Positions 26,072-57,374 of a DNA stretch of 64,000 nucleotides are shown here, in pieces. Position 1 is the first letter of the stretch. Each line of letters opens with the position of its first letter. The stretch lies in contig CP136069.1 of the NCBI GenBank assembly GCA_032622095.1, forward strand, positions 154,369,043 through 154,433,042. The letters run 5' to 3'. Below the pieces are notes generated by a model. The model ran no database searches. It was not told the origin of the DNA and saw only the letters and a program-made list of their open reading frames with translations. Source of the stretch: Siphonodentalium dalli. Taxonomy: Eukaryota > Mollusca > Scaphopoda > Gadilida > Siphonodentaliidae. Both the position numbers and the translations under genes were made by a program.

Positions 26072-26566
26072 AAGATTTTATATTATATGTATGTATATGT
26101 GTGTCCACACGGATCCATATATGTGTGCATGTGTATATTTAGGTGTATGTACATACATAAGTATATCACTTCTGAATATACTTAAAGGTGCTTCCGAAAT
26201 TTCAATTTTTATGTGGCAGTTATCTCACAAACGGACCAACCTCCCCCACAAACATGCACGTTCTTATCAATTGTCGGTACTGTCTTCCAGAACGCTACAA
26301 TAATGAAAACCTAGTTCATGACTGTCTACTATTATTATTTTTTCACAATGTAGCCTCATTGTTTTAAACACAAATCTACACAACCTCTGGAAGGCAATAC
26401 AAATTATATATCTCTAAACTGATCATCATGTAAATACGTTTATATACCGTCATCTTGATCACATGTATGTAATATTATTGTATCGGGAGAGGGGCTTCGT
26501 AAGTTGTAAAAACTTGTGCCTCAATCCCTTTTGTATATTATACAAATAAAATATGTTTCAAGTCAA
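23213..26566 (+). mobile_element. 5'-truncated LINE flanked by ~970-bp direct repeats
   Basis: The element starts abruptly inside the endonuclease domain immediately after repeat A1. It ends AATAAAATATGTTTCAAGTC then AA immediately before repeat A2. The R1 repeat cut by it resumes in A2 as ACTACGATGGTGTACG. The arrangement is flank, A, LINE, A, flank, as for a target-site duplication, but with A almost 1 kb long. Confidence 0.85.
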
Positions 26567-27655: not shown

Positions 27656-28793
27656 AAAACATGGCTGCCAGCGGCCATCTTGGATTTCAAAATTTGCAAC
27701 AAAATACAACACGATAACTGCCTGCAGTCAGTTTACCAGTTAGAATTACATTATTTCTCTCATTCAAAGTGGTTTTGAAGCCCAACTCATTGCCAAAACA
27801 CTAAAAAAACAAGCAGGAATTATTTTTTTTAGTTGCGGAAAAAATTGCTTGTTGGTGGCTTTAACCACCCACCCACCCCGGCATATGTGCCGGGGTGAGA
27901 ATAGGTTGTATATGTACATATATGTGGCAGTATCCGCGGGGCGAGAATAGGTTGTATATATGTACATATATATGTGGCAGTATCCGCGGGGCAGAAGCTA
28001 CACGCATTTCTATGTATAGGTGTACACACATGTACATGTCTGTCTATATTTGTACACGATGACACACCAACTTAATGTCAGCCGTATGTAAAGTTTGCTC
28101 TAACGTTGCACATCGATTCTACGAACACAAATGCCATGTTGCCCGTATAAAAACGGAAGAAAACGCTTACAAATCGCCGCATGAATCTCGCTGAAATTTT
28201 TTTCCGGCACATATGCCGGGGTGGGTGGGTGGTTAAAGCCACCAACAAGCAATTTTCAGCGAGATTCATGCGGCGATTTGTAAGCGTTTTCTTCCGTTTT
28301 TATACGGGCAACATGGCATTTGTGTTCGTAGAATCGATGTGCAACGTTAGAGCAAACTTTACATACGGCTGACATTAAGTTGGTGTGTCATCGTGTACAA
28401 ATATAGACAGACATGTACATGTGTGTACACCTATACATAGAAATGCGTGTAGCTTCTGCCCCGCGGATACTGCCACATATATATGTACATATATACAACC
28501 TATTCTCGCCCCGCGGATACTGCCACATATATGTACATATACAACCTATTCTCGCCCGGCACATATGCCGGGGTGGGTGGGTGGTTAAAGCCACCAACAA
28601 GCAATTTTTTCCGCAACTAAAAAAAATAATTCCTGCTTGTTTTTTTAGTGTTTTGGCAATGAGTTGGGCTTCAAAACCACTTTGAATGAGAGAAATAATG
28701 TAATTCTAACTGGTAAACTGACTGCAGGCAGTTATCGTGTTGTATTTTGTTGCAAATTTTGAAATCCAAGATGGCCGCTGGCAGCCATGTTTT
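27656..28793. repeat. Near-perfect palindrome, 543-bp arms, 52-bp spacer
   Basis: The arms 27656-28198 and 28251-28793 are reverse complements with only a couple of differences (for example GCCGGGGTGAGAA against GCCGGGCGAGAA). The spacer 28199-28250 is itself a copy of an arm segment (CGGCACATATGCCGGGGTGG...). The arms contain two tandem GGTTGTATATGTACATATAT units and are derived from the G-run element family. Confidence 0.9.
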
Positions 28794-32500: not shown

Positions 32501-34536
32501 GCTTGTTCTTATGATCATGTTCAAGGAGTTTGGGTATATTATGCATTATGGTCTTCTACGGCTACGCCTAAGCAGAAATACATCCGTCAAATGTCGGGCT
32601 TTCAACATTCGAAGCCATATACAGAAGTTGTCCGGGTACGTCAGTGCATTAGATGAGTATGTGAATTGATAAACCATATATTGAGAAGTGGCTTTTTGGG
32701 AAGATCACCAGGTGTACACGTTGTTATCCCCATTAGGTCACCAAAGCTGACAATACGCAGATAGATAGGTCCTTCTGGAAGCTAGTATACGCATCGACCG
32801 AATACCTTTATAGTGTATCACACAAGATGACGCATATACCCCATATGTAGCATCTGAATTATACCATAAGCTATACCACGAATGAAGCTCGCTAAGAATT
32901 CCAAGTTTTCGAAACACACGTGAGCTGGACACCGGCATATGTATTGTTTGAAACATTCCGATTAGTGGCACACTCCTACAAAGAAGAGTAGTGAACCGTT
33001 GTTGTGAGTGAGATAGATTAATCTGACGAAGAGATGGAAACGAGTCTAGATAATACTGAATGTGGCAATTCAGAATAAGCTCAGGTACTGTTGTTTTGAT
33101 TCTTGGAAGTCATAATATGACTATTCGGTGCACCTATATACGGTTACGGCCAGTATGAGCCCTTAGTGGAGAATGGATTTTGAAATGCCACATTGCGATT
33201 GTGGGTTTTCATCCTTCCAAAAGCCTACGACTTACATTGGAACTAATAGATGGCTTATATTATGTACCGTTTCGTTTATACAAATCAATATTATGACAAA
33301 AAGTTGAAATTAGTATGTGATAATATCGGCTTCTTTTCAATTTCTGCCTGCCAGTTTGGCCGCCATATTGAATGTGAGTATCACTTGCCAAACCCTAATG
33401 AATAATTCATACATATCAACATGTAATGGTGGGTAGAAATCGCGTAACAATAACGCCCATCCTAAGAAAGTAAAGGAATGTAAGCGTGTTTTCAAATTTC
33501 GGTCGCCATTTTGGCCGCCATCTTCGATTTGGAAAACCATTTCTTGCATGAGATGTAAGGTAATTACTTCACCTCAGTATTTCCAACTCAACTGTACGCA
33601 TGGATGGAGTTGTCTCGACAATAATGCCCAATGATGTGAATATGAGGAAATTTCGGTGATTTTTCAAAATCTGTCCGTCATTGTGGGCGCCATTTTGGAT
33701 TTGGGGGACTTTTATTTGAATATGGTACAAGGAAAGTTCTTCGCCTAAGTGTTCCCAACTTACAATAGTAAGCAGGTGTGGAGTTGTCATGACAATAATG
33801 CTCACTGATGTTAAAATCAGCGATTTTCGGCGATTTTTTATTTCTGGTGGCCATTTTGGCCGCCATCTTGGATTTGGGTAAATATTCCTCAACTCAGGTA
33901 TAAGAGGAATCCTAGCTCGAGTATCTCCTGCAAATATATATGCATGGGTGTTGTTATAATAGCAATAACATTCATTGATTCGAAACATAACATCGCGTTA
34001 TTAACGGAGATTCGGCTTTGACCTATGATACCGGCATTTGGGAAAACGTGATATCGGACAAAAATATCCAGCAATGAATGCATATTATGGTCCTCGTGTG
34101 TTCGCCAATGACTCCTCTATATGATAAATGTATAAGATGACGCAAAAATTCTAACATTTTCCCACAGAGACAAACGAAAGGTGGTAACATGTCAGAAAAA
34201 TAGCATATTTTCACATTTCGGCGGCCTTCTTGGCCGCCATATTGGATTCTGGTGTCGGATATTTGGCTAATTTGTAAGGGTTGTATATTAGCATAACGAA
34301 TCGAGCGGGAAAAAAGAGCCGCATGTGCTATCATCTTTACTATAATGGCGATCAAAGAGACCTGGTGCATTAAAAAAAATGGCCGCCATGGACGCCATCT
34401 TGTCTGAAGTCTCTGCGGCCACTTTTTTTTCTTGTTAACAAGTGAAAAAAATTAGAGGAGACCTTAAGGAAGAAAATTAGTGGGGTGAAGTTAAGTCCTG
34501 GGGGGGTGCAGAGGTCGACCAATATCTCCTGGACTA
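29516..34536. mobile_element. 5.0-kb element with ~1.45-kb terminal inverted repeats, GTA duplication
   Basis: The left end TAGTCCAGGAGATATTGGTC mirrors the right end GACCAATATCTCCTGGACTA. It is flanked by GTA at 29513-29515 and 34537-34539. The arms (about 29516-30960 and 33090-34536) are close reverse complements for the first 1.25 kb and more divergent inside. They are studded with ATGGCGGCCAAGATGG-type motifs, C- or G-runs near the ends and AAGAAAAAAAAGTGGCCGC. Frames found in one arm appear mirrored in the other and are not genes. Confidence 0.85.
30961..33089. other. Interior of the long-TIR element; no transposase recognised
   Basis: A short open stretch near 31997-32150 (from GAAACTGGTCGCATTGGTG, preceded by an AG) reads TGRIGDVTKKSLGVPTFVEL and could be a remnant of a coding region. 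I do not recognise it. Other frames (31463-31711, 32339-32656) have no visible domain. Confidence 0.35.
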
Positions 34537-37062: not shown

Positions 37063-37455
37063 CCCTTTACCCAACAAACCGGCCAAAACCGGCCGAATAA
37101 AGCTTCAACAGCCTAAAATATCTTCGGTCTGTCTCAATAGAACCATACAAATATGGATATCATTGGAACCGGCTCCTTGACCACATTGTGATAGTTACAG
37201 TTATGCCCTGTGCCAATGCATTCTCTTATATATGCGAGTCGACCATAGGTCGCCTCGCATATATAAGAGAATGCATTGGCCTAAAAAAAAATCTTTTTTT
37301 AACACTTTTTACCATTTTTTCATACATTCTTTAACAATTTTATAATTTTTAATGTGCTAAGCCAATGCATTCTCTTATATATGCGAGGCGACCTATGGTC
37401 GACTCGCATATATAAGAGAATGCATTGGCACAGGGCCCTTCTGTTGGGTAAAGGG
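37063..37455. mobile_element. piggyBac-type MITE, TTAA target, copy 1
   Basis: CCCTTTACCCAACA at the left and TGTTGGGTAAAGGG at the right are flanked by TTAA (37059-37062 and 37456-37459). Inside are two hairpins built on CCAATGCATTCTCTTATATA and TGCGAG around a GTCGACC/GGCGACC loop. Confidence 0.9.
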
Positions 37456-39065: not shown

Positions 39066-41720
39066 TAGGGGCTTACTATATGCCTCACAGAGAAGACCAC
39101 ATCGCAGAGCTGTGAAGTCCATCAACCTAGCGACATCCGGAAAGCAAAAATCATCTGTGGGGACTTCAATTGCCCGGACATAGAGTGGGACATCTCAGTA
39201 GTAAACAGAGGAGCCCAAGACAAAGACGTACAAACTAACCTACTAAAAATCAAGTCAGAAAAATGGCTAAAACAAATCCACTAAGAACCAACGCGGGAAA
39301 AGAATTTTCTAGACATAGTCTTCACGAACAATGCATCATTGTTAAAATAATCAACCAGCATAACAGGCATATCTGACCACTCCATAGTCATTACTGACAT
39401 CGACATGAAGCCCAGATACCAACATTCAAAACCGAGAAAGTGCTATCTATATAAAAAAGCAGACTGGACGCAACTTGGACTGGACCTGCAAATACTGGGC
39501 GAAGGCCTACGAACACTAAATAGTGGAAGATATGTGGAAACATCTGAAGGAGGGGATACACATGGACCAACATATACCATCTAAGCGTATATCAAAAAAG
39601 CAGAACACTCCACGAGTAAACCACAAGATCAAGAAATTGCTACGAAAGAAACAGCGCCTGTTTTCACAGGCAAAGAAGAACAACATCTGAACCAACTATC
39701 GTGCCATGCAGAAAGAGTGTAAAATGGAAATGAGGAAGGCTGAGTGGGATTACATTAATGCTAACATTAAAGAAGGTTTAGAACAAAAGACGACGAAACC
39801 ATTCTGGAGATGCATCAAGAGCAGAAAACAAGATAACATCGGAGTGTCACCATTGAAATCACAAGGCAAGCTGATTGACGACCCAAAAGGCAAAGCAGAA
39901 ATCCTGGTAAAACAGTTCCAGTCAGTATTCACCAAGAACCAACCACCACTACCCGACCATCAACCCAAATGCGGAAACATCGGCAAACTGACAGTGACAG
40001 TCAATGGCATCGAAGCTCTGCTGAAGAGATTAAACTGATCCACAGCCTCGGGCCCAGACGGTATCCCAAACTCTATCCTGAATTACGCAAAACAACTGAC
40101 ACCTGCCTTCATGCTCATATTCAAACTCTCATTAGACAAAGGCACATTGCCAAGGGACTGGCGCAGCGCCAACATAGCCTCAGTCTACAAAAAAAAGACC
40201 GACGTCAAGCGGAAAACTGTCGTCATGTGCCCCTAACACCAGTACAGTGCAAGCTACTAGAACACCGCATATTCCGCCATATACTGGAACACCTGGATAA
40301 GCATAACATATTAACAAAACTAAACCACGGCTTTCGAAGGCGCTATTCCCGCGAAACACAACTAGCAGTGACAACACAAGATATATTACAATCGTTTGAC
40401 AACAAGAAGCAGATCGACGTGGCTATCCTTGACTTCTCTAAAACTTTCGACACTGCACCACACAATAGCCTATTGACCAAACTAAATCACTACGGTATCA
40501 CAAGCCCGACCAACAGGTGGCTATCATCCTCTCTGAAAGAAAGAAAGATGAGAGTTGCACTCGATGGATATTACTCATAATAAGTTGCTGCTATTTCTCT
40601 GTCGCATAAACGACACATTTATTAACCCTTTAATACCCAACAGAAGGGCCCTGTGCCAATGCATTCTCTTATATATGCGAGTCGACCATAGGTCGCCTCG
40701 CATATATAAGAGAATGCATTGGCTTAACACATTAAAAATTATAAAATTGTTAAAGATTGTAAGAAAAAATGGTAAAAAGTGTTAGGCCAATGCATTCTCT
40801 TATATATAAGAGAATGCATTGGCACAGGGCCCTTCTGTTGGGTATTAAAGGGTTAATAAATGTGACACAGTAAAGTCCGTCTATTCACAGATGACTGCCT
40901 CCTGTACCGCCATATAAATATATACAAAACCACGAAATATTGCAACAAGAGCTACGCAAACTGGAGTCATAACTGGAGTCATGGCCACCAAATGGGGGAT
41001 GCGCTTCAATCCATCTAAGTGCTACAATATGAGCCTAAAGCAGAAGACACAAAGATTTTACCAACTAGAAGGGCAGATACTCCAAGAAGTTACAAACAAT
41101 CCGTACCTTGGCGTCCAATTCTCAAATGACATGCAGTGCCAACACCACATCGACGACACCACGAAGAAAGCAAACTGCACCCTATAGGCATCCTTCAGCG
41201 AAATACTGCCAAATGGATCTTAGAAAAACGGCATATATAGCATTAGTCCGCCCCAGCTAGAGTATGCATCGACAATCTTGGATCCACACTATGAAAAGGA
41301 CAAGACAAAACTGGAGATGGTCCAACGCAAAGCAGCAAGATTTATAAAACAGGACTACCGATCGAGAGAGAAAGGCGTAACATCAATGCGCAGTGAATTT
41401 CAACTACCATCCATAGAAGCAAGAAGAAAGGAACAGAGACTGACACTGTTTTATAAAGTGGTTAAGGGATCGGCCCCGGGTATCAACTCCGAGGAAAAAG
41501 AAACCCATAAAATTCAAGGACTTTGTTAGTGACAACATCGTGGAGAAACTAACCACAAACAACGAAAGTGCTTACGAACCAATTAAAACAAACACAGACC
41601 AATACGATATTCCTTCTTTCCGAGGACTGTACTTGACATGAACAAACTGGACAAAAGCACAGTCAATGCCGCCGACCTAGAAACATTCAAGGCGGCTCTG
41701 GGAGAACAAAAATAGCGCGC
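39066..41720 (+). pseudogene. Broken endonuclease and reverse transcriptase of the 2A/PHD LINE
   Basis: Fragments in changing frames are: GDFNCPDIEW (about 39163), a linker ORF at 39706-40038 (KECKMEMRKAEWDYINANIK), ASGPDGIPNSILNYA (about 40043), RSANIASVYKKKTDV (about 40164), LDFSKTFDTAPHNSLLTKLN (motif A, about 40429), LFTDDCLLYRH (motif C, about 40880), NPYLGVQFSNDM (about 41098) and a tail at 41278-41529. The GVPQGT motif B block is deleted before 40583. A piggyBac-type MITE (40626-40852) sits between the motif B position and motif C. Many stops and frameshifts make it clearly dead. Confidence 0.8.
40626..40852. mobile_element. piggyBac-type MITE, TTAA target, copy 2
   Basis: CCCTTTAATACCCAACAGAA at the left mirrors TTCTGTTGGGTATTAAAGGG at the right, flanked by TTAA (40622-40625 and 40853-40856). 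It has the same internal hairpins as the copy at 37063; the second hairpin has lost its loop. Confidence 0.95.
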
Positions 41721-42097
41721 CTCCCACCGTCCTGTAAAAGCCAGCGTTGGTCACAGGGACGGCTTGTTACTATAAATAGAAAAAGAATAGTAGGCATGTA
41801 GGAATCCTACTGGCGCACTATCGTAAAATAGTATAGCAGTGTGCAGCCAATCAGTATGCGCGAAAGTCACGTGAGATATAATATAGCAAGATAATAATGC
41901 AGTATATTGCTGGTAGTAACATAGCCCTGTCAGGCCATCTTTGTATTTCCCCTAGTAGTATATATGTTAACTGTGTGTATGCCTGTCGTATGTCCCTTCA
42001 AATAAACAATAATAGACAATTCCAATGTATTTTATGAATCATGGATGAAGTCATTCGGTCAAGTGTTAAAGCGTGTAATACCACCAAAGCAGACTTC

Positions 42098-42209
42098 TAC
42101 AGTTAATGCCCTAAATAATCGACAACAAGCTATATTTCAGACTAAATCCTGAAAAATTACCCATAATTCTGCTGTGGTTAAGGAGTCGATTATTTAGGGC
42201 ATTATTGTA
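42098..42209. mobile_element. Tc1/mariner-type MITE, copy 2, next to a splice acceptor
   Basis: TACAGTTAATGCCCTAAATA at the left mirrors TATTTAGGGCATTATTGTA at the right, with internal CCTGAAAAATTACCCATAAT. It ends 18 bp before exon 42228-42395, directly against its polypyrimidine tract. Confidence 0.85.
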
Positions 42210-42227
42210 TATACTCTTTTTCAACAG

Positions 42228-42395
42228 GCGTGCTGACAGCAACTTACGGTGAGGTTTGCGAAAATGACACAGCGTGTGCGGCAGACAAAGGATTATCATG
42301 TTACAAACCATATCAGGAATGCTCAAAGGGGTACTGTTTGTGCGCAAATGGTCCGCTCAGAAACGACTGGGATAGTAATGACGGAGTATGCAAAA
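42228..42395 (+). CDS. Cys-rich exon 2 of the secreted protein (EB/EGF-like module)
   Basis: 168 bp between acceptor CTCTTTTTCAACAG and donor GTAAGT, starting and ending in phase 1. It encodes about 56 residues: ATYGEVCENDTAC, then ADKGLSCYKPYQEC, SKGYCLCANG and DSNDGVCK. The spacing C-x5-C-x7-C-x6-C-x4-C-x-C-x15-C resembles EB-type modules of invertebrate secreted proteins. The first residues complete the signal peptide started at 34810, so cleavage is likely near TATYG. The shared cysteine spacing with the exon at 53377 supports one gene. Function unknown; secreted or extracellular location is inferred. Confidence 0.8.
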
Positions 42396-42669
42396 GTAAG
42401 TTGGGGTTTTATTGTTGTTCAACTTCAACAATTCATTTGGTAGATCGTACACAACAAGAATCTTGGTAGATACTTTATCAAATGAGCTGCGGACGGCGAT
42501 ACAAGATTATATATTGTGACGTAAGTTGTGTTCTGTATTTATTCTACACCCTTGTGTCAGATAAGTTTAATCCATGACTGTGACTACCATTGGTACTATA
42601 ACTACCTTTATTGTGATTTAAGTCTAATGCAAAACCGGTAATTATGTGTGCACTACACGAAGGGGGTAG

Positions 42670-42830
42670 TTAACATTACGTACGTCATCACTCTTGGCAA
42701 CAACACCAACTCGAAGTAGTTCCGGTTGTATTCAACTTGTGGTATACACTATGTTTCCAATGACTGGGATTCGATTGAATGCAATGTACATGGTGCCTCG
42801 CGTCAACGGGTGAGGAATAATATTTATTAT
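42670..42830 (+). repeat. Old dispersed repeat, copy of 10091-10265
   Basis: Matches through GTCATCACTCTTGGCAACAA, CTTGTGGTATACAC and the final AATAATATTTATTA, with many differences. Confidence 0.6.
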
Positions 42831-42934
42831 ACTGATAATTCAGAAATGTTCAAGTCAGTTATGTGAATTATATGTGTGCAATTATAGCATAAATGCGCAC
42901 TTATTTATAGTGGTTAACGGGTAAAGACAAATCT

Positions 42935-43734
42935 GTATCATCATCATCATCACCATAATCATTACCAGAATTATCGTCATCATTGTCAACATCAACATTA
43001 GTTTCAGCATCATCGTCATTCTCATCACCATAAACATCGTCATCACTATCAACATCATAATAATCATTGTCATTATCATCATCGCCGCCGTCGTGGTGAT
43101 CAGCATCATTATCATCATCATCATCTTCATCATCATCATCATCATCATCATAATCATCAGCAGCATCACCATTATCACGATCATCATCTTTATCAGTTTC
43201 AACATCATCGTTGTCATCATCAAACATCTTAATTATCACCATTCTCATCATCTTCGTCACTATCATTATCGTCATCACAATCATTATCAACATTATCGTC
43301 ATTATCATCACCATAATCATCGTTTTCAACATCATCATACATAATCATCATCACCATCATTTATCGTCATTATCATCATCATCATCATCGCCGTCGTCGT
43401 CAGTTTCAACATAGTCGTTTTCATCGTCAAATATCATAATAATCATCATTGTCATCATCATCAATATCATCATCACCATCGTCATTATCATTACCATAAT
43501 CATCGCCATCATTTTCTACATCATCATAATAATCATCATCACCATTATCATAACCATCATCATCGTCATTACCATCACCACCAACATATCTACCAGCATC
43601 ATCATCATAATCATCATCATCTTCATCATCATCATCACCATAATCATCGTCATAATTTTCAGCATCACTATCATAATCAATTTCATCGTCATTATCATTA
43701 GCGTAATCACCGTTATCATTATCATCAACACCAT

Positions 43735-43766
<32 letters not shown>

Positions 43767-45117
43767 TCATCATCACCACCACCACCACCACCACCACCAC
43801 CACCACCACCACCACTACTACCATCATCATCATCATCATCATCATAACATCGTCGTTGTCATCGTCATTATCATCACCATAATCATCGTCATCATTTTCA
43901 ACATCATCATAATCATCATCATCACCATCAGCATCATCGTCTTTATTATCATAATCCTCGTCATCATTTTCAACATCATCATAATCACATCACCACCATC
44001 ATCATCATCATCATTATCATCATCATCATCACCACCACCACCACCACCACCACCACAACCACCACCACCACCACCATCACCATCATAACATCGTCGTTGT
44101 CATCGTCAAATATCATAATCATCATCATTGTCAACATCATCGCCATCACCGTCATAATGAACATCATCGTCATCATCATCACCATTATGATCGTCATCAT
44201 TGTTAACATCATCATCAGCATCGTCATCATCACCACTACCATTATCCTCATAATTAACATCATCACCATCATCATCACCATCACTATCATCATCATCATC
44301 ATCAGTGTCAGCATCATCGTTGTTATCATCGTCAAATATTATAATCATCATCGTCGTCACTATTATCATCATATCCATCGTCACCAACATCATCGTCATT
44401 ATCATCCCCATAAACATCGTCATCACTTTCAACATCATAATAACCATTGTCATAATCATCATCATCGCCGTCGTGGTGATCATCATCATCATCGTCATCG
44501 TCACCACCACCACCTCTACCACCATTATCATCATCATCAACATCATCATCATCATCGTTATCATTATCGCCATCATCATCGTCATCAATTTCAACGTCAT
44601 CGTCACCGTCAAACATCATAATCTGCATCATTATCATCAAGATCATCGTCACTATCATCACGATAAGCATCGCCATCATTTTCAACATCATCATAATCAT
44701 CATCGCCATCGTCGTCGTGATCATCACCACCATCATCATCATCACAGTCATCAACATCATCGTCACTACCATCGCCATCAACATCATCATCAGTAGCATC
44801 ATTATCATCATCATCACAGTCATCAACATCATCATCACAGTCATCAACACCATCGTCACTATCATCACCATAAGCATCGTCATCATTTTCATCACTATCA
44901 TCACCATCGCCGTCGTCGTGTGGTCATCATCATCATCAACACCAACACCAACACCACTACCATCAGCATCGTCATCATCATCATCATCAACACCAACACC
45001 ACCACTACCATCACCATCATCATCATCATCAACAACATCATCATCGTCATCATCATTATCATCACCATCGTCATCTTCATCAGCACCACCATCATCATCA
45101 CGCTGCACTGAGTCTGG
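42935..45117. repeat. Imperfect trinucleotide (ATC/CAC) array; 43490-45117 is direct repeat B1
   Basis: A 2.2-kb array of TCATCA variants with pure CCA blocks (near 43770-43815 and 44025-44080). Every frame is open for long stretches on both strands (Ile/His/Ser/Thr, or Met/Val/Asp on the other strand), so these frames are not genes. The part 43490-45117 recurs at 51168-52801 on the other side of the LINE, ending in the non-repeat CGCTGCACTGAGTCTGG. Confidence 0.95.
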
Positions 45118-45598
45118 CCTGAATTAGGTCCCCTTTATGTTAAGTCGTAAACAATGTGTCTCTTCGAATTATCGCATATATGTCGGAATAAATAGATTCT
45201 CTCTCGATTTTGATGGTATGATGTGTTTGCGGAAGTTATTCCGATTCCAATGATGTTACCAATTCGTTTGATCGTCAACCGAATGTTTCAACATGACCGA
45301 ATAAACTCTCGTATGTATACTCCATTCGTCCGAATTTCCGTTATTGTTTTGTAAACGACGCCATGTTTGACGTGTCTTGTGTACCTTGATGAACTGTACT
45401 CACAATATACAAGTGTATACTGGAGTCTTCGCCGTGTGAAAATGTCACGCTTCACTGCTACTACTATAAACACTAAGTTGTAAATGCCGTGCGGGAAATA
45501 TCATTACTCACTGATACTCATGTACGGGTGGACAGTTAGCGAATTCATCTGGTGATTGGCAATTATACCACTTACCTGTTCCAAAAGAAGATATAAAC

Positions 45599-47155
45599 AT
45601 GGGAGTAACTGATCATGACATCAGCGACAACGGTAACGACATTCGCACATTAATTAAATGCTTATCAGCATGGTATGACAGTATCGAATCGCAACAGTAT
45701 ACTCGAAAGAAAGAAGATATGATACAAATAACCGAAAATTTAAACCACGTCCTAAAATTTATAAACTCTACCACGCAGGAGATGTTCGTAGCGGCTATCG
45801 TTGAATTTGTTGCAAACCAAGAAAAACTTCTGGACACACTCAGGGACAATATATTCTCACATGTGAAGGAACTAGAATCTTTTCCGTTTGATAAGTCGTC
45901 ATGTATGAAACAAAGAGTTATCAGAAGTCAAACAGGTGATCATGTGGTGGACAAAAACAATAAGCACAAACGAATGGCATGTGATGTATATAGACTTATG
46001 AAATTCATGGTTGATGGTCAATCGGACTGCATTGGTGACATTATTAGTAAAGGTGGGCGACTCAAAAGTGTTTGTCGACCATCCATATCAGGAATGATCA
46101 ATGATGAAGAAGATGTCGGCATCAACATTAAATGTGCAATCGTGGAAATTCAAAAGGATATATCGTGCATGAAAACTGACAATGAAAACTTTCACCACAC
46201 CTTTAATGACCGTATACCCAAATTCGACTCATCAATCGCCAGCTTAGATGCCAGACTCGAAAAAATTGAAGAAAAACTTAAAATCGTAAACAACATTGAA
46301 CAGATGCAATCGGATGTAAAACAAATAAACACAAAAATCAAAGAAATTGACGAAAGGATACAAAGCGACACACTAACAATTGAGAGAATCCAAGACGACA
46401 AATATTCGGGTGCTAGAAAACTAAAAAGTGAAATTGATGGAATCAAAGGTGACATCGGAAAAATAGTGAACGGGCTAGAAGAATACAATGGGAAACAAAA
46501 AAGACTGGAAAATCAATTCGCAACACTCAGAGACATTGTTAATAAAAAACATGTGCAACCTACCCATTCTTGTGATAAGTTCGTAAACGAAACAATCAAA
46601 CAAAATGTTGAAGTCATGAAAAATGAATTCAGGAACTTCACAACATCAGTTACAAACAATTTACAATTATTTGCTGATTCCGTAAATCAATCAATGGGTG
46701 AAATTTGCAAGACACAGCGTGAATTGGTCGAAACCATAAATAATATTATGCATCAGTCATATGAGGAGGAAGTTTACATGGACGAATCATATACCTCACA
46801 CCCAAATGATGTCAGCGTAGAGTCAGACATTCCGCATACAAATCAGCAGACGAAAAGAACTCCCGACAGACCAGTTCAACCGAAATCAAATGACGATGAC
46901 TACTTTTTTCAACTACACGACAGACCGATTAAAACATCACAAGTGTTCTTAGGTGCATTCGACGATAGTGTGACAATACATGACATTAAGAAATATCTGA
47001 ATAAGTATGAAATCCGGTTTACAGTTATTCGTATGCTCAGAGGAAATACAGCCAGATTGAACATATGCGACAGGGACCTTGACGATGTATTATCTGACAA
47101 CTTCTGGCCGAAAGGCGCTGTATGCAGATTGTGGGTTCATAAGAGCGACATTTAA
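45599..47155 (+). CDS. LINE ORF1 protein (coiled coil, nucleic-acid-binding type)
   Basis: 518 codons from the first ATG after the leader. The N-terminal half is charged and helical. Residues about 205-320 form a strong coiled coil (LDARLEKIEEKLKIVNN, VKQINTKIKEIDERIQSD and similar heptads). The C-terminal about 75 residues (SQVFLGAFDDSVTIHDIKKY ... DNFWPKGAVCRLW) look like a small compact domain of the kind that follows coiled coils in LINE ORF1 proteins and may bind RNA. No CCHC knuckles were seen. In other LINEs ORF1 trimerises and packages the RNA; that role is inferred here. ORF2 starts 44 bp downstream. Confidence 0.8.
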   Translation: MGVTDHDISDNGNDIRTLIKCLSAWYDSIESQQYTRKKEDMIQITENLNHVLKFINSTTQEMFVAAIVEFVANQEKLLDTLRDNIFSHVKELESFPFDKSSCMKQRVIRSQTGDHVVDKNNKHKRMACDVYRLMKFMVDGQSDCIGDIISKGGRLKSVCRPSISGMINDEEDVGINIKCAIVEIQKDISCMKTDNENFHHTFNDRIPKFDSSIASLDARLEKIEEKLKIVNNIEQMQSDVKQINTKIKEIDERIQSDTLTIERIQDDKYSGARKLKSEIDGIKGDIGKIVNGLEEYNGKQKRLENQFATLRDIVNKKHVQPTHSCDKFVNETIKQNVEVMKNEFRNFTTSVTNNLQLFADSVNQSMGEICKTQRELVETINNIMHQSYEEEVYMDESYTSHPNDVSVESDIPHTNQQTKRTPDRPVQPKSNDDDYFFQLHDRPIKTSQVFLGAFDDSVTIHDIKKYLNKYEIRFTVIRMLRGNTARLNICDRDLDDVLSDNFWPKGAVCRLWVHKSDI

Positions 47156-47199
47156 CCCCAATATACATCTATATTCAGTACTAAAATAGTACCGTTGAT

Positions 47200-50100
47200 A
47201 TGGGCATTCATTACTGCAATGCTCTACTTCTTTTAGTTGTGTGTTTGTTGAGCAATTGTGTATTTTCAGGTCACAAAGCGGATTACAGAATGGATAGTTC
47301 CACTCTTAATCTGTTGACTTGGAACGCTACTGGTATTATGTCATCAGGTTCATATCTCAGTAAGATGCTCGGCACGGGCTTGTATGACATAATTGGTGTT
47401 AGCGAACATTGGTTGTCTGCACACAATGTTGACTTTATCGAATCACTTGACAAATCTTATGAATACCACGCGGCATGTGATTATCGTCAGAGAACACCAA
47501 AACTGCCTAATAAAAGAGGGAGACCATCGGGTGGAGTAGCTCTTTTGTGGAACAAAAGGATCTCCCACTGTGTGTGCCCCTTGCCTATCAACAGTGATCG
47601 TATAATAGGCATTCAGATACATTTATACCAAAATACCTTTATTTATATATTTCAAGTATATCTTCCATCGACGAATTACACACCAGAATTCTATGGAGAA
47701 TGTATTCAAATGTTATACGATGTATGTAATATTTATAAAGCACATGGCAATATAATAGTAATGGGCGACTTTAATGCTCGATTAAATGTCAGTGCTGACC
47801 GCAATATGGCGTTCACAAAATTTGTCAAGCAATTAAACCTATTGTCTACAAATGTTCAAATGTGCGGAAATACCCCGCCCGTAACTTGTGTTCCATTTGG
47901 AACTATTAATCATATGATACAAGGTTCAATCATAGATCACATTCTTGTACCGGAGACACTAAAAACATGTGTCAAAACTGTGAATGTTCTCGATGATGAT
48001 TCTATTGATGTATCAAATCACAAACCGATTTCCGTGGGTATTAACGTTCCTGTGCACGCCAAAGCTAAATCGCTAAACAGTCATCAACCCGTATCAATGA
48101 TAGATTGGAAGCGTGTATCACGTCAGACAAACTTAATTGAAATATATCACAATTCTTTAGATGCAGAATTAAGGTCGATCGCTATATCCTCTAGAAAACT
48201 AAATTCTTCAGAACTATACGATACTATTATGCATGCTATATCCACTGCAACGGATAAAGCGCTACCAAAAAAGAAATTTAAAAAAAATCTGAAGCCCTTT
48301 TGGAACGAAAAACTGAAACAATTGCATGCAAATATGGGAATCTTGCGAAATAACTGGATATATAAAGGGCGCCCAAGAGCAGATTCTAAATCAGATGCCT
48401 ATAATTTATATAAATTAGCCAAACGCGAATTCCGTAGAGAATATAGGAAAGCAGCAGAAAAACACATGACAGATTTAAATGATGAGATTGATGAACGGGC
48501 GCAAGTTGACAGGGACTATTTATTTCGTATTTTACGTAACAAACGCCGGCGTACACATTTGGATCGAAATCCGATCTACTGTCATGAAGGAAAAACACTA
48601 CGCACAGAAGAGGAAGTTTCAGAAGGTTGGGCAACTTATTTCGAAAAGCTATACTCGCCCCTGTACCACTATGAGTTCAATTCTGAACATTTTGATAAAA
48701 TCACTTCATTTGTATCGCGCGAGACTTCTGAACAGTCATGTAGACAAACGAGCGAAATTGACCGTCGCATTCTGTTCCCTGTAACCGGAAAGGAACTTGT
48801 ACCAATTTATCGTTCTCTTAGTCGAAACAAAGCGGCCGGGTGGGATAATATTACAAACGAACATTTAATTCATGGAAGCCCTCTACTAACGAAAACTATC
48901 GCTGAACTACTCACGTCAATCTTTATGACACAAAATGTTCCCAATCAAATGAAACGCGGAATAATCGTAACACTGTACAAAGGAGGATCAAAGCCCAGAA
49001 CAGAATTTGACAGCTATCGAGCAATTACTCTAATGCCTGTATTGTATAAATTATTTGAGAAAGTTATGCAATCTCGACTGGAATCATATGCACCGAACAT
49101 TCTTTCAGTACACCCGTTACAACATGGTTTCCAAAAAAGTGTAAGCGCAACAATGACATCATACCTTTTGAGGGAATGCATTTCTTACACTTCCGATTGC
49201 AATCAGAAATTATACTGCTTCTTTCTAGACGTTTGGAAAGCATTTGACACTGTCTGGATTGATGGTCTATTATACAAACTACATAAACGTGGAATGCAAG
49301 GACATACATTTAAACTGATAAACCAACTACTCAAAACTGTTCAATGTTGTATCCGGTATGATGAAACATATTCGCGTTGGTTCGATGTACAACAGGGCGC
49401 CAGACAGGGAAGCATTCTCTCGCCTCTGTACTACATGATATACGTAGACGAATTGATAAAATTGTTATCAGAGTCACCATATGGTCTTACTATACTCGGC
49501 GTCAACTGTACTTGTCCTACACACGCAGATGACATGGTATTGCTCTCATTGAGTAGTACGGGGTTGTCGGAATTATGTAATATTTGTGAAAAATACAGTA
49601 ACAAATGGCGGTACAGATATAACTCCAATAAATGTTCGGTTCTGGTTTTAAACGAATCCAAAAATGAATTTTCTAATCGAGCAAAAAATTGGACTTTGTG
49701 TGCCAATCGGGTGGAAGAATGCACAGAAACTACTCATCTTGGCATACCCATCGACAAATATGATTTCAATACTGCTTTCGTTGAACGCATTTGTGACAAA
49801 CTAAGAAGTGCACTCATGATGCTAGCAAACGCAGGAGTTTATCCCGGTGGAATAACGCCACAGAGTTGCACGATGCTATATTCATCAGTAGTCTTATCTA
49901 AAGGTCTTTATGGTTCTGAATTACTATGGGATCTCAATAGAAATTGTGTTGATCGACTTGAGAAAACTCATCGATTCTGCATAAAATATTACCAGGGTTT
50001 ACATAGACGAACATCAACAAATATAGCATGCGGTTTGGTCGGTATGTCGCCAATAAATGCAATAATTGAAAAACGTAAAATGTCATTTTTTGGTTCCTTG

Positions 50101-50802
50101 TGCAACTTAAAATCCAACAAAACCGGTAAACAATTATTTTTCACGAGATTACATCAATATCTGACGGGCCTCGTTAAATTTTCAGGGAATTTCATGGCCG
50201 ATATCATTTTTATCTTTGACAAATATAAGTTGACAGGGGAACTGGAAGCGTTTATTCGTCATAGATCCTTTTTAAATCCGACAACATGGAAGCGAAAAGT
50301 CAGACAACGTTGGTCGGAAATAAACGATGCAGAATGGACACAAAACATATTAAGCGATAATAGACTTATTCGGTTCCATGACATACATTCCAGTCGTCAT
50401 ATGTCCCAATTATGGCAAAATTGTCGAAAATTCCCCAAAAACAAAGAGTCATATTTAATTGTTGCGCGACTGTTGTCTATATTACAAACCGAAGAAGCAA
50501 ATTGCTCACTCTGTCGATTAAAATACACAGATATAGTGTCCCATGCATTAGTGGAATGCTCCTCGTTACATCGTGATAGGGATCTTATCGAATATGAACT
50601 ACTAAATGAATTTCACGTGGACGTTTATCTAAAATTTGACTCACTCGATACTGAATCTAAAACACGCATATTTCTATCTAGATGTAATGATCTCGTACAT
50701 GAATCCGCAGAAGTTGAAATTTATCTAATCGACTTTTTTGTGAGGAAATGTGCTTATCTGTGGAAATTATATGTTGACCGAACAGCAGCTGAGAATGTTT
50801 AA
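47200..50802 (+). CDS. LINE ORF2: APE endonuclease, reverse transcriptase, Cys/His tail
   Basis: 1200 codons, uninterrupted. The true start may be M31 (MDSSTLNLLTWNATG), because residues 8-22 are an odd hydrophobic stretch. Endonuclease: N42 in TWNATG, E69 in VSEHWL, VMGDFNARLN (188-196), D246 in IIDHILV and H274 in SNHKPIS (variant of SDH). RT: NKAAGWDNITNEHL (about 545), YRAITLMPVLYKLFEKV (about 608), motif A FFLDVWKAFDTVW (about 674), motif B QQGARQGSILSPLYYMIYVD (about 731) and motif C HADDM (775-779, His where Tyr or Phe is usual). C-terminus: CSLCRLKYTDIVSHALVEC (about 1102-1120), a C-x2-C...H...C block. It would nick target DNA and prime cDNA from the 3' end. Clade not assigned. Confidence 0.9.
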   Translation: MGIHYCNALLLLVVCLLSNCVFSGHKADYRMDSSTLNLLTWNATGIMSSGSYLSKMLGTGLYDIIGVSEHWLSAHNVDFIESLDKSYEYHAACDYRQRTPKLPNKRGRPSGGVALLWNKRISHCVCPLPINSDRIIGIQIHLYQNTFIYIFQVYLPSTNYTPEFYGECIQMLYDVCNIYKAHGNIIVMGDFNARLNVSADRNMAFTKFVKQLNLLSTNVQMCGNTPPVTCVPFGTINHMIQGSIIDHILVPETLKTCVKTVNVLDDDSIDVSNHKPISVGINVPVHAKAKSLNSHQPVSMIDWKRVSRQTNLIEIYHNSLDAELRSIAISSRKLNSSELYDTIMHAISTATDKALPKKKFKKNLKPFWNEKLKQLHANMGILRNNWIYKGRPRADSKSDAYNLYKLAKREFRREYRKAAEKHMTDLNDEIDERAQVDRDYLFRILRNKRRRTHLDRNPIYCHEGKTLRTEEEVSEGWATYFEKLYSPLYHYEFNSEHFDKITSFVSRETSEQSCRQTSEIDRRILFPVTGKELVPIYRSLSRNKAAGWDNITNEHLIHGSPLLTKTIAELLTSIFMTQNVPNQMKRGIIVTLYKGGSKPRTEFDSYRAITLMPVLYKLFEKVMQSRLESYAPNILSVHPLQHGFQKSVSATMTSYLLRECISYTSDCNQKLYCFFLDVWKAFDTVWIDGLLYKLHKRGMQGHTFKLINQLLKTVQCCIRYDETYSRWFDVQQGARQGSILSPLYYMIYVDELIKLLSESPYGLTILGVNCTCPTHADDMVLLSLSSTGLSELCNICEKYSNKWRYRYNSNKCSVLVLNESKNEFSNRAKNWTLCANRVEECTETTHLGIPIDKYDFNTAFVERICDKLRSALMMLANAGVYPGGITPQSCTMLYSSVVLSKGLYGSELLWDLNRNCVDRLEKTHRFCIKYYQGLHRRTSTNIACGLVGMSPINAIIEKRKMSFFGSLCNLKSNKTGKQLFFTRLHQYLTGLVKFSGNFMADIIFIFDKYKLTGELEAFIRHRSFLNPTTWKRKVRQRWSEINDAEWTQNILSDNRLIRFHDIHSSRHMSQLWQNCRKFPKNKESYLIVARLLSILQTEEANCSLCRLKYTDIVSHALVECSSLHRDRDLIEYELLNEFHVDVYLKFDSLDTESKTRIFLSRCNDLVHESAEVEIYLIDFFVRKCAYLWKLYVDRTAAENV

Positions 50803-51167
50803 GTGTAAGTGTATACGCGTCACCAGTATAAAACTTTCGCAAATATACATGGCATATACAATATGAGCAGCGCTGACATGAGAGGAATATATCGTAATAT
50901 CAGCCACAACAACAACAACAACAAAAATTAAATAATGTCAGCAGCAAAGGTCAATTGAATTTCATGCTACCTATGCCTTTATCGATATCTTGCATATTTA
51001 TGTTACTATAATGATTGTATGCTGAATGTTTATGGATACTTGTCATGTTGTATAATTATGTAAAATATGATAAAAATTCAATGTGTTGTGTGTAAATGTT
51101 GAGACGACAGTCTCTATTATTGTTATATATTTTGATATCTTCGGAAACGGAGGAAATAAAGATATAT

Positions 51168-51413
51168 ATTACCATAATCATCGCCATCATTTTCTACATC
51201 ATCATAATAATCATCATCACCATTATCATAACCATCATCATCGTCATTACCATCACCACCAACATATCTACCAGCATCATCATCATAATCATCATCATCT
51301 TCATCATCATCATCACCATAATCATCGTCATAATTTTCAGCATCACTATCATAATCAATTTCATCGTCATTATCATTAGCGTAATCACCGTTATCATTAT
51401 CATCAACACCATC

Positions 51414-51447
<34 letters not shown>

Positions 51448-52801
51448 TCATCACCACCACCACCACCACCACCACCACCACCACCACCACCACCACCACT
51501 ACTACCATCATCATCATCATCATCATCATAACATCGTCGTTGTCATCGTCATTATCATCACCATAATCATCGTCATCATTTTCAACATCATCATAATCAT
51601 CATCATCACCATCAGCATCATCGTCTTTATTATCATAATCCTCGTCATCATTTTCAACATCATCATAATCACATCACCACCATCATCATCATCATCATTA
51701 TCATCATCATCATCACCACCACCACCACCACCACCACCACAACCACCACCACCACCACCATCACCATCATAACATCGTCGTTGTCATCGTCAAATATCAT
51801 AATCATCATCATTGTCAACATCATCGCCATCACCGTCATAATGAACATCATCGTCATCATCATCACCATTATGATCGTCATCATTGTTAACATCATCATC
51901 AGCATCGTCATCATCACCACTACCATTATCCTCATAATTAACATCATCACCATCATCATCACCATCACTATCATCATCATCATCATCAGTGTCAGCATCA
52001 TCGTTGTTATCATCGTCAAATATTATAATCATCATCGTCGTCACTATTATCATCATATCCATCGTCACCAACATCATCGTCATTATCATCCCCATAAACA
52101 TCGTCATCACTTTCAACATCATAATAACCATTGTCATAATCATCATCATCGCCGTCGTGGTGATCATCATCATCATCGTCATCGTCACCACCACCACCTC
52201 TACCACCATTATCATCATCATCAACATCATCATCATCATCGTTATCATTATCGCCATCATCATCGTCATCAATTTCAACGTCATCGTCACCGTCAAACAT
52301 CATAATCTGCATCATTATCATCAAGATCATCGTCACTATCATCACGATAAGCATCGCCATCATTTTCAACATCATCATAATCATCATCGCCATCGTCGTC
52401 GTGATCATCACCACCATCATCATCATCACAGTCATCAACATCATCGTCACTACCATCGCCATCAACATCATCATCAGTAGCATCATTATCATCATCATCA
52501 CAGTCATCAACATCATCATCACAGTCATCAACACCATCGTCACTATCATCACCATAAGCATCGTCATCATTTTCATCACTATCATCACCATCGCCGTCGT
52601 CGTGTGGTCATCATCATCATCAACACCAACACCAACACCACTACCATCAGCATCGTCATCATCATCATCATCAACACCAACACCACCACTACCATCACCA
52701 TCATCATCATCATCAACAACATCATCATCGTCATCATCATTATCATCACCATCGTCATCTTCATCAGCACCACCATCATCATCACGCTGCACTGAGTCTG
52801 G
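51168..52801. repeat. Direct repeat B2, 3' flank of the full-length LINE
   Basis: 1634 bp matching B1 (43490-45117). The only differences I saw are in the length of CAC and CAT runs near 51416-51500. The sequence continues past it as AATATGTGGGGGGATC, which I take as the original right flank. Confidence 0.95.
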
Positions 52802-53376
52802 AATATGTGGGGGGATCACTATTACCACAAGCAAGCATTACATCAGTCGCATCCAATCACAAATTAGTATCAACAAAGCGATGTAGCCATCCAGGCGAGT
52901 GTTGGAATCTCTATACAGTCGCAGATTTCCACATAACTAAAACTAGCGCCAGTTTGAAGCATCGGATAATAATCATAGAGGCGATATCTTTCATTGGTAA
53001 AGCTATATATATGTGATGTGGTGTCATAATGCATGGGTCGCATGAGAAGTTATTTATATCGACACAGTTCTATTTGGTAATAGGAGACACGGGCATTTTC
53101 TCTAGACCAACTATTGCCTTGCTATTCGAGTCGGGTTTACCCAGAGTTGCATCAAAATCGTCATCATTGTGTATATCCAGACTCGAACATACATGTAATT
53201 GTTTTTTTACTCTCATAGTTTATGCATTTTATATTATATGTTATATATTTATTTTTTTTATTATAAAATCTTCATAGTTTTTGGGGAAATCAATATATAA
53301 TATTTTACTGAGAAGGATAGCGTACAAATAACTGGACGTGTTAAGCTATCAAGATACCAACTCGATTCAATTTCAG

Positions 53377-53571
53377 ACTACATAGCGTATGATGCAGCTT
53401 GCTCAGCTAACGCACAGTGCAACCAGAACTCGGGACAGGAATGTGCTAGCTTCCTCTGTGCCTGTGCCGCTGAGACTTGGAACAGCACAGCCATGGTCTG
53501 CAAAGGAACATCAAGGATCGCAGCAGCAACAACACCCCCTGTGTGCACGGACGTCAATTATAAATGCGTGG
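53377..53571 (+). CDS. Cys-rich exon 3 of the secreted protein
   Basis: 195 bp between acceptor TCGATTCAATTTCAG and donor GTGAGT, phase 1 at both ends. It encodes YIAYDAACSANAQC, NQNSGQECASFLCAC, AETWNSTAMVCKG, an Ala/Thr/Pro linker and PVCTDVNYKCV. Cys spacing C-x5-C-x7-C-x4-C-x-C-x11-C repeats that of the exon at 42228, so the gene has grown by duplication of phase-1 module exons. Joined to the previous exon the frame is kept (A plus AC gives Asn). NST is a possible N-glycosylation site, consistent with secretion. The final Cys pair may begin the next module. Confidence 0.85.
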
Positions 53572-53589
53572 GTGAGTTCGGCTTATTGT

Positions 53590-54060
53590 CTAAAGGCCCA
53601 CTTAATGTTCGAACACCCAGATTACATTATATAAAATATATGCCATATTATATACCATGAACCCCCAGATTACATTATATAAAATATATGCCATAGTATA
53701 TACCAAGAGGAAGCTCCAAAACATTGTATTATCAATATGGCCGGTGTAATTAACTGTGGGCATGTTTTTTTGTTGAGGTATACCGACGTGTTTTCTGTGT
53801 AAATATTGTTAAGCCAATGCATTCTCTTATATATGCGAGGCGGCCTATGGTTCGACTCGCATATATAAGAGAATGTATTGGCACAGGGTTTCGTAAAAAT
53901 TCAGGACGCTCCAGTCATCAAAGGTTTAAAGGCTCACTTAGTTTTCGAACACCCAGATTACATTATATAAAATATATGCCATATTATATACCATTTGAAA
54001 GAAAAAGCTCCAAAACATTGTATTATCAACTTATCCGGTCTAATAAACTATGGACATTGA
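53590..54060 (+). repeat. Dispersed repeat in three partial copies
   Basis: CAGATTACATTATATAAAAT and ATATGCCATA occur at 53621, 53670 and 53956. CTCCAAAACATTGTATTATC occurs near 53713 and 54009 and, diverged, near 35531. The 53614-53705 part is a local tandem duplication of about 48 bp. Confidence 0.75.
53814..53930. repeat. Hairpin of the GCATTCTCTTATATATGCGAG family
   Basis: CCAATGCATTCTCTTATATA, a GCGGCCTATGG loop and the reverse arm to GAATGTATTGGCACAGGG. Only the right half of the MITE appears to be kept. Confidence 0.8.
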
Positions 54061-54485
54061 GTAGCCAACGCGTTTTGTCATCAAGATTGGAGTAAAAATC
54101 AGCATTATTTCCAATGCAATGGGAATACCTCTATATATTAAAGATAGAGTTCTTCCCCTTCCATTAAAAGGTTTGAAGACACAAGATTACTTCCATATAT
54201 AATGATAATAATCTACAGGAATACAATGCACTATATATCATATCCCTTAGTAAAAGCCATATATAGTATCTATCAAGCTATACCTATACCCTATACCCAT
54301 TATGATTCATCCATATTCTACACATTTCACTTCCACTCATTTATTTATCAACACGGTGACAACACCAACCACCAATTACTAATTATATATGAAACTCACA
54401 GGACAATACATACTCTTAGAACAAATGTGTACAAATTCTACACAAAATGTGTTACATTTTATCTTAAACAAAATTGTGCAGAAAT
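54061..54485. other. No gene recognised
   Basis: AT-rich intron sequence with an imperfect hairpin at about 54107-54170 related to 35637-35703. Confidence 0.45.
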
Positions 54486-57374
54486 CACCCTATGTGTGCC
54501 GATCGGTGTATTGCTGTGGGTCGGTGTAGAGCTGCTAACCACGGGAATTCCCGTACGAGGGGTAGATTGGAAAACGTGGTTTATCAAAGCACAGATTGAA
54601 ATTTTCTTAACTGTTTTTTTGCTTTAACATCGAACAAAGGAACCAACAAACAGTAAGTATGATTGCCTAGTTAATAATATCGCATAATCGTGTCCCTTCA
54701 ATACTTTTATCACAGCTTTTGCCTCGAAAAAGTTAAAATTCCTGTTTAAATCTCCATAACTTTTGCAAACCAAGACCTTTACTTCGGGAAACCAATTGAA
54801 ATTATAGGCAAATATATTGAGAATCAATTTGGGTGCATAAACCCAACCATCAAAGCTATATTTCTTGGTGAAAATTTAGTTTGACGGAGGGCACTACCGA
54901 GAAAAAATGGCACGAATATAGCACGATAAGATCATCTGATAGTTACGATTTTACCGCAAATGTCCGGGAAATAGCAAATTATTGACATTCCAGTTTCATT
55001 GAGATTTTAATGGAATTTGAACTAAATGCAGCCGTTTCCTTATTCGATGATCTGTTGGAATATGCAATTGATCTAATATCGATATGACATGCCTGTAATA
55101 ACCCACAACATTGTATTTATTACCTATCTAGCATATATGTGTGATTTATACAGATTTCCCAGTTAATTATCAGGTAGGCCTATATATGTATATTGTCACT
55201 ACCGAAATTGACGTCATTTTCCCTTTGACGTTTAATTTCTGTTTGTGAAATTTCGTGCATAAATTGTCTTTTAAAAGTTGTTCCGAACAATTTAAACCAC
55301 ACCATCAAGCTGCCAAATTTCTAGCTTGGATATGTAATAAACAGAATAACCAACATGTTGTGGTGATTACGTGATATAACGCACTCAATATAGATTTACT
55401 AACTTGTAAACTCTTTTATTCGGGTTTCTGTCAGGTCCATCCACCTTGTGACGCATATCACGTAATCATTGAATTCAGTTGATTGATCTCAATATAAGTA
55501 ATTTCCATAGTATTCATTCACATGGTGATTTCTCTCATCATTTCTGGGATGGTGCAGGCGTTTAAATGTTTTCACTGTGGATCAAAGTGGACGAACCTGA
55601 GTGATATTGCAGATCACAATGTCACAGATCACGGACATGTGAGTTGCGCTATTTGGAAAAGTTTTTGGACCATGCGACATGTCGCAGGGACAGAGAGATA
55701 CGCGCTGAAAGTTCATCATGGTGTCATTCCAACATACCTAGTCTCAGAGGGGAGAATGGTCGATGTTAACGACGAGTCAATATACATTGTCAATGTGAAA
55801 TCGAAAGTAAAAAAACTCAACACACCTGCCAAGCGAAAACTAAACTATGAATCAGAACTAGTTGATGGACAAGAAGACAGTTCAATGGATGATACCAGTG
55901 GCAGTAGTATCCCAATAGACGAAACGGAATTTGAAGTTGAGATTGAGAAACTAACAGACCTGCTGCCAAAAGTGCTACAACAGTCAGAAGGTGAGGGGCC
56001 TGTCGATCTGTATGTGGAGATGAATAGACTGATCGCTCATGGCTCACTGCCCTTAGACAATATATGTTATTTCAAGGAAAATTTCTTCGTTTCATGCGGG
56101 GTCCTCAACACATTGGCGACTTAACTCAAGGATTAACAGAGAAAAACTATAATATGACCCTCTAACAGCTAAGCTGAATTTTGCCGTACCTCATAGACTC
56201 AACCTTATGACAAAGGACCAAGAATCTAAAAAAGTCCAATTGTTCTTAAGAATCTAAGGGTTATCTTCCTGGTATTCGCCAAGACATTATCCAGCAAGTA
56301 GCACATGTGTTTGGAAAAAATAGTTAAGATAGCAGTCGACGGAAAAAAGATATGCAGAGGAAAAGGCAAAGTTCTTGGTGATGTTGATTGTTGGGGAAGA
56401 TAGACCGATATTAGATATCTAATATCGATATGGCATGCCTGTAATAACGATCAAAGTGGACGAACCTTTGTGACCGAGCCAATTCTGGAAGACAGGCGGA
56501 AAACACTGGAGAAGGACAAAGAAGCAGTATCAAGATGTTTGGAAATTATAGAAGATTGTGAGGCCTTTGGAATCGATGACTTGGAGTCAGTCTTATCTTC
56601 TGCATCTTTGGAATTAGTCGAGATAATACAACACATCATCACAAGACTCGTTGAGACCAACATGATTCTAAAAGCTAATGCCAACAGTTTCTCTGCGACG
56701 CAATTAATACAATACGAAACAGCGATGGCTAAGTCATAATAAAATGATATTTGCACCTGACGTAAATGTTTATACGAAACGATTAGTCACGATCAATCAG
56801 TCCCATATATGTTCGAAGAATGTCCTGAGAATAACACCGCCTAAACCTGTTAAAATACCAGCATATATGAAGGTTTAATTTCAGCTATCATCCGTTCCAT
56901 GAAAGCTTTTTCCCGATCATACCATGTTTTCTCATTGCTATATTCGTGCCATGTTTTCTCGGTTGTGCGCTCCGTCAAACTAAATTTTCACCAAGAAATA
57001 TAGCTTTGATGGTTGGGTTTACGCACCCAAATCGATTCTCAATATATTTGCCTATAATTTCAATTGGTTTCCCGAAGTAAAGGTCTTGTTTTGCAAAAGT
57101 TATGGAGATTTAAACAGGAATTTTTCCTTTTTCGAGGCAAAAGCTGTGATAAAAGTATTGAAGGGACGCGATTATGCGACATTATTAACTAGGCAATCAT
57201 ACTTGCTGTTTGTTGGGTCCTTTGTTCGATGATTAAAGCAAAAAAAACAGTTTAAAAAATTTCATTCATGCTTTGACAAACCACGTTTTCCAATCTACCC
57301 CTCGTACGGGAATTCCCGCGGTTAACAGCTCTACACTGACCCACAGCAATACACCGATCGGCACACATAGGGTG
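54486..57374. mobile_element. 2.9-kb element with ~440-bp TIRs carrying a broken gene
   Basis: TIRs 54486-54925 and about 56934-57374 are reverse complements with modest divergence. The left end is CACCCTATGTGTGCCGATCG and the right end CGATCGGCACACATAGGGTG. They are flanked by GAAAT at 54481-54485 and 57375-57379, a 5-bp candidate target duplication. The TIRs contain CGGGAATTCCCGTACG-like ends and ACGGAGNGCAC near the inner side. Between them lies the orphan gene remnant 55522-56739. CAC termini with a 5-bp duplication recall Transib-type transposons, but no transposase is present, so the class is open. Confidence 0.8.
55522..56739 (+). pseudogene. Broken orphan gene with a C2H2-like finger
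   Basis: The first open part (55522-56124, 200 codons) has a C2H2-like finger FKCFHCGSKWTNLSDIADHN followed by VTDHGH (residues 14-39), a basic stretch and an acidic Ser-rich middle. It ends with DNICYFKENFFVSCG. Conserved-looking pieces follow in shifting frames: YDPLTAKLNFAVPH (from 56153), LPGIRQDIIQQVAHVFG (about 56268), KIAVDGKKICRGKGK then VLGDVDCWG (about 56325-56397), and a helical frame 56470-56739 starting MTEPILEDRRKTLEKDKEAV. From memory this order resembles an unnamed family repeated in cnidarian and mollusc genomes; I could not verify that. Frameshifts and stops make it a pseudogene. Its position inside the TIRs means it was either captured by the transposon or is the element's own gene. 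Confidence 0.55.

Follow-up and report, generated by a model that had tools for sequence, protein, structure and literature searches.

A LINE enclosed by 1.63-kb direct repeats

The window analysed here is a stretch of 64,000 nucleotides from contig CP136069.1 of the scaphopod Siphonodentalium dalli. The locus at the centre of this work comprises a triplet-repeat array, a LINE and a second copy of part of the array:

42937-43489, no strand assigned: part of the (ATC)n-type array lying left of the duplicated segment (TRF array 42937-45100)
43490-45117, + strand: putative target-site duplication, copy 1 (1628 bp, of which the last 17 bp lie outside the array; self-alignment)
45118-51167, + strand: full-length LINE of 6.05 kb, APE endonuclease and reverse transcriptase type (ORFs, Pfam, family comparison)
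45599-47155, + strand: ORF1, 518 aa, open; coiled-coil-like matches only
47200-50802, + strand: ORF2, 1200 aa, open; Exo_endo_phos and RVT_1 (Pfam)
51164-51169, + strand: (AT)n 3' tail, length 6, the last AT being common to the target (family comparison)
51168-52801, + strand: putative target-site duplication, copy 2 (1634 bp; self-alignment)

The preliminary description of this DNA held that the LINE is bounded exactly by two 1.63-kb direct repeats that are identical except for the lengths of repeat runs, and self-alignment of the window bears out both points. The segments 43490-45117 (1628 bp) and 51168-52801 (1634 bp) are 99.4% identical, and their match stops exactly where the LINE starts and ends, with no extension past either end. 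All differences are confined to three neighbouring run lengths within one triplet run, which reads (CAC)4(CAT)9(CAC)9 in the first copy and (CAC)5(CAT)8(CAC)11 in the second; beside it the sequence is identical for 251 bp to the left and 1338 bp to the right. Self-similarity of the array does not explain repeats of this size, since exact non-overlapping repeats within one array copy are at most 41 bp long and alignments out of register attain about 72-73% identity over 700 bp or more. Because of the short (AT)n tail of the element, 1-2 nt at 51168-51169 can be assigned to either LINE or target; the second break is placed 17 bp beyond the triplet array. The second copy had also been said to run into new sequence: the match does end at 52801, but the DNA that follows is not unique, its first ~344 bp matching a dispersed repeat (86-90% identity) at 38 or more places.

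Identity of the element

ORF2 matches the Pfam families RVT_1 (1e-28) and Exo_endo_phos (2.4e-11). The presence of an endonuclease and reverse transcriptase reading frame without LTRs, together with flanking repeats that are specific to their locus (0/700 swapped flank pairs, below), identifies the element as an APE-type LINE. The 26 other loci surveyed below share its 3' end with an (AT)n-type tail, and most begin inside the element, as 5'-truncated copies do. Their flanks, judged by eye, are diverse and do not mark a microsatellite-specific LINE. With its 26 nearest relatives, which show 29-38% identity, ORF2 falls into one group (SH-aLRT 100). No homologue of ORF1 was found at E<=0.001 among 7992 scored candidates, no relative was confirmed in viral contigs, and a set of genome contigs yielded one locus (26%), on a contig that ends soon after the match. 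Rfam gave no match at gathering score within 40000-56000.

The family 3' end reads ..AATAAAGAT and is followed by a short AT-rich tail. Four other full-length copies start at about TACGTCCCC or TTACGTCCCC, and judging from these starts the 5' junction of the window copy may include roughly 4-9 additional nt, counted from 45118; L035, another member of the family, has about 11 extra bases at this junction.

A LINE-free paralogue with one array

The right flank of the locus has a 93% identical paralogue, L072, 145 kb upstream on the same chromosome. Its order is left-flank-like sequence (88% identity), about 360 bp of other sequence, a single array of about 2.1-2.2 kb (84% identity) and an uninterrupted junction (CTGAGTCTGG followed directly by AATAT), all without the LINE; further along, its right flank is interrupted by about 0.5 kb of inserted sequence. 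At 84-93% identity L072 is a diverged paralogue, not an allele of the window locus, and it and window positions 42662-53600 are diverged segmental duplicates of a triplet-array locus. Since this LINE-free relative holds one array, the window locus probably had a single array at an earlier stage. The reading as a target-site duplication, as originally proposed, finds support in the exact ends, in an (AT)n 3' junction like that of the family and in the one-array paralogue.

Long duplications at other insertions of the family

The search with the LINE 3'UTR covered a genome of 2.23 Gb in 9 contigs, in one assembly. The best 40 of 88 candidate places, the window's own included, were scored, and many of these 40 match at 98-100% identity; 26 other loci were chosen from them and read. 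As L026 and L029 stem from one insertion event through segmental copying, the sample amounts to 26 independent insertions, window included. A duplication was called long when the flanks shared a match of 100 bp or more, anchored at both termini to within 25 bp. This test, run automatically, was positive for the window, L021, L023, L025, L026, L029, L033, L034 and L037, as well as for L012 and L022, which are tandem-repeat loci. Three insertions in or beside tandem repeats were set aside, leaving 23 scoreable: L012 (a minisatellite), L022 (a 1095-bp satellite) and, with more reserve, L038, which is followed downstream by a repeat arrayed elsewhere at about 3.95-kb spacing, with one copy in the vicinity of L038 among the matches listed. 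L022, L026 and L029 are located within or next to tandem repeats of long period (about 1095 bp and 1242 bp), and an older relative lies upstream of L034.

The window duplication is no one-off. Long target-site duplications accompany 9 of the 26 independent insertions, while 14 (L010, L011, L013-L020, L024, L027, L028 and L036; 14/23 scoreable) show none in the range examined, about 2.5 to 9 kb by locus, and 3 were set aside. Besides the window, the duplications are:

L021: 484 bp, 100% identity, including some of the AT tail
L023: about 1490 bp, 98.5%
L025: 3103 bp, 100%; outer flanks differ on both sides; the clearest case
L026 and its segmental copy L029: about 707 bp
L033: 668 bp, 99.85%
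L034: about 712 bp, 98.9%
L035: about 693 bp, in two pieces, one anchored at each end; a later insert of about 115 bp interrupts the downstream copy
L037: about 135-145 bp, 92%, with 10 gap positions

The nine lengths are about 135, 484, 668, 693, 707, 712, 1490, 1628 and 3103 bp (median 707). At all nine insertions the repeats are exact at the ends of the element and specific to the locus, and flanks swapped between loci gave no long match in any of 700 pairs. Shorter duplications did not exceed the swapped null (0-6 bp in both) among the 14 insertions lacking a long one and L038, and no scoreable copy has a convincing duplication of 7-60 bp. The family gives about 135-3103 bp, or none, rather than about 5-30 bp, the usual length for L1.

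Three further candidates among these loci were rejected. A 399-bp flank match at L010 is unanchored, and its ends resemble a dispersed repeat with inverted termini; a match at L020 is anchored at the start, has 70% identity and is unanchored at its other end; and a short match at L027, which measures 11 bp of (AT)n or 4 bp depending on where the junction is placed, was read as tail. Eight additional family copies, several of them old, were tested indirectly, and none had a second nearby copy of its flank at a threshold of about 97% identity among the matches listed, which were partly repeats; for one of them a second copy lies 15 kb downstream, on the wrong side. A flank search of seven copies lacking long duplications was little informative, the matches listed being dominated by the repeat of L038.

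The boundary on the side of the first nick appears rather regular. The base before the duplicated segment is C, followed by AT, in 6/9 insertions when L029 stands for its pair and in 5/9 with L026; 6/9 has a probability of about 0.002 on base composition, for a motif noticed after the fact. The side of the second break has no pattern by eye. Slipped pairing within the triplet array, earlier suggested as an aid to the duplication, is not supported: eight other insertions have duplications of 0.13-3.1 kb, and the duplicated targets of L021, L023, L026 and L029, checked for internal repeats, showed none.

A second LINE and other features of the window

The window contains another LINE with long direct repeats exactly at its two ends:

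22239-23212, + strand: putative target-site duplication, copy 1 (974 bp; 97.4% identity to 26567-27528)
23213-26566, + strand: second LINE, unrelated to the first, 5'-truncated inside the endonuclease domain; reverse transcriptase in frame at 24281-26071 (Pfam)
26567-27528, + strand: putative target-site duplication, copy 2 (962 bp; self-comparison)

That an unrelated LINE has a 974-bp duplication hints that the host, and not only the first LINE family, allows long duplications. The 3'UTR of this second LINE has 2403 candidate places in the genome. The downstream flanks of eight other copies were searched, and after L042 and L049 were left out of the count for their repetitive flanks, none of the six judgeable copies (0/6) had a second copy of its flank nearby.

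Elsewhere in the window, broken reverse transcriptase and GIY-YIG reading frames at 5528-7565 (RVT_1 below and GIY-YIG above the Pfam cut-off) resemble a Penelope-like element. Long inverted repeats (29516-30379 and 33679-34536, 97%) bound about 3.3 kb within 29516-34536, and a palindrome-like 1.1-kb inverted repeat lies at 27656-28793 (96%). An 80-bp direct repeat, 37205-37284 and 40648-40727, was rejected as a duplication, being part of a repeat present in both orientations.

Origin of the direct repeats

We consider it highly probable that the 1.63-kb repeats are a genuine target-site duplication, arising from target-primed reverse transcription, and that such duplications are a habit of the family. 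Triplet arrays change copy number easily, and the LINE might instead have landed exactly at the junction of two array segments that were already duplicated in tandem; against this, a single array is present in the LINE-free paralogue, and an equal coincidence would be required at nine insertions, which leaves this reading with very little credence. We give just as little to unequal exchange between two LINE insertions in the same allelic region. Such an exchange would leave one LINE between overlapping flanks, an identical layout, and many family copies are young, but it would demand two same-strand insertions within about 0.1-3 kb of each other at each of nine places. False joining of haplotypes or copies by the assembler, through near-identical LINEs or arrays, is improbable, though somewhat less so than these two. 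The evidence comes from one assembly, among the 40 best-scoring of 88 candidate places many 3'UTR matches reach 98-100% identity, the duplication copies of L025 and L021 are identical, unlike most, and in another study calls of large duplications from brain sequencing proved to be chimaeras (PMC4805530). Against this, nine insertions with differing flanks and lengths are exact at both termini, compared with none of the swapped pairs; most duplication copies differ slightly, and one copy at L035 has acquired a later insert.

A finer version of the target-site duplication reading, compatible with it, would place the cause in the host, whose repair would finish insertions with a distant second break whichever LINE family was involved. 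The duplication at the second LINE favours this, as does the median of 1495 bp in nucleotide excision repair (NER)-deficient cells (PMC5223499); the absence of positives among the six other second-family copies speaks against it, as do the XPA_C domain, found at one place in the genome, and the Rad4 domains, found at two, which are domain matches, Rad4 not in itself proving XPC. Loss of XPA is accordingly not supported and loss of XPC is unlikely. We hold a host-wide cause to be possible, with the balance tilted somewhat against it.

A model for the insertion

The rather regular look of the first-nick side, the second-break side without a pattern to the eye and the outcomes that are either long or absent together suggest that the second break does not fall beside the first nick. 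In the model that we favour, target-primed reverse transcription with an uncoupled second break, the first nick would prime on the (AT)n tail, and the other strand would be broken up to about 3 kb away. A second break downstream of the first nick would leave the intervening span duplicated; one at or upstream of it would give no duplication or a deletion, so that the model predicts target-site deletions. The order and position of the nicks, the fill-in and the end joining at the 5' end would be steps of this reconstruction, built on what is directly established: duplications that bound the element exactly and recur at other insertions, and a LINE-free paralogue with one array.

Relation to known systems

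Target-site duplications of L1 usually measure about 5-30 bp (PMC5223499); canonical human insertions have a median of 21 bp (PMC12350158), intact Hebe copies of a rotifer have 7-12 bp (PMC2861651), and the duplications gathered in a survey of insertions in human and chimpanzee were restricted to 5-30 bp (PMC2912911). L1 in NER-deficient cells resembles the present family in making insertions with kilobase duplications (5 bp-5.3 kb, median 1495 bp), for which a distant second nick was proposed (PMC5223499), but those were engineered insertions in mutant lines, whereas here natural copies lie in a genome with XPA and Rad4 domains. The authors of a study of L1 in brain knew large duplications at an appreciable rate only from HeLa (PMC4805530). 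The zebrafish element ZfL2-2 offers two likenesses, a long duplication in wild-type cells, where 1/25 insertions in chicken DT40 had a duplication over 20 bp (1228 bp), and extra bases, which in zebrafish occur at about 40% of 5' junctions (PMC2666801). Long duplications number 1/25 there against 9/23 scoreable here (Fisher p = 0.004; p = 0.0046 for 9/24 with L038 counted as none; p = 0.03 for 9/31 with the eight indirectly tested copies added), in systems and under definitions that differ.

The rotifer element R9 has an endonuclease of the RLE type. With its 126-bp target-site duplication it shares a natural long duplication as a family trait (cited in PMC6895275), yet R9 makes one length at an rDNA site, whereas the present family is of the APE type, with variable lengths at dispersed sites. 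In a tumour, an L1-bridged tandem duplication of 22.6 Mb likewise has a single LINE separating the two copies of the segment; that event was somatic, of megabase scale and ascribed in a proposal to sister-chromatid bridging, in contrast to the 0.1-3.1 kb found here (PMC7058536). Long LINE duplications were already known from cultured cells and a tumour. A literature search, largely confined to open-access papers, listed no natural germline LINE family with frequent kilobase duplications.

Of all steps of LINE insertion, how the second strand is broken and joined is understood least, and a natural family with a distant second break would offer many independent end-points to read. We see even chances that this is an active LINE family without fixed second-strand cleavage, one that duplicates hundreds to thousands of bases or none (perhaps with deletion) and would act as a germline engine of segmental duplication. 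With such a family it could be asked whether element or host repair is the source of the looseness, and LINE activity would be linked to duplications of host DNA up to kilobases in length.
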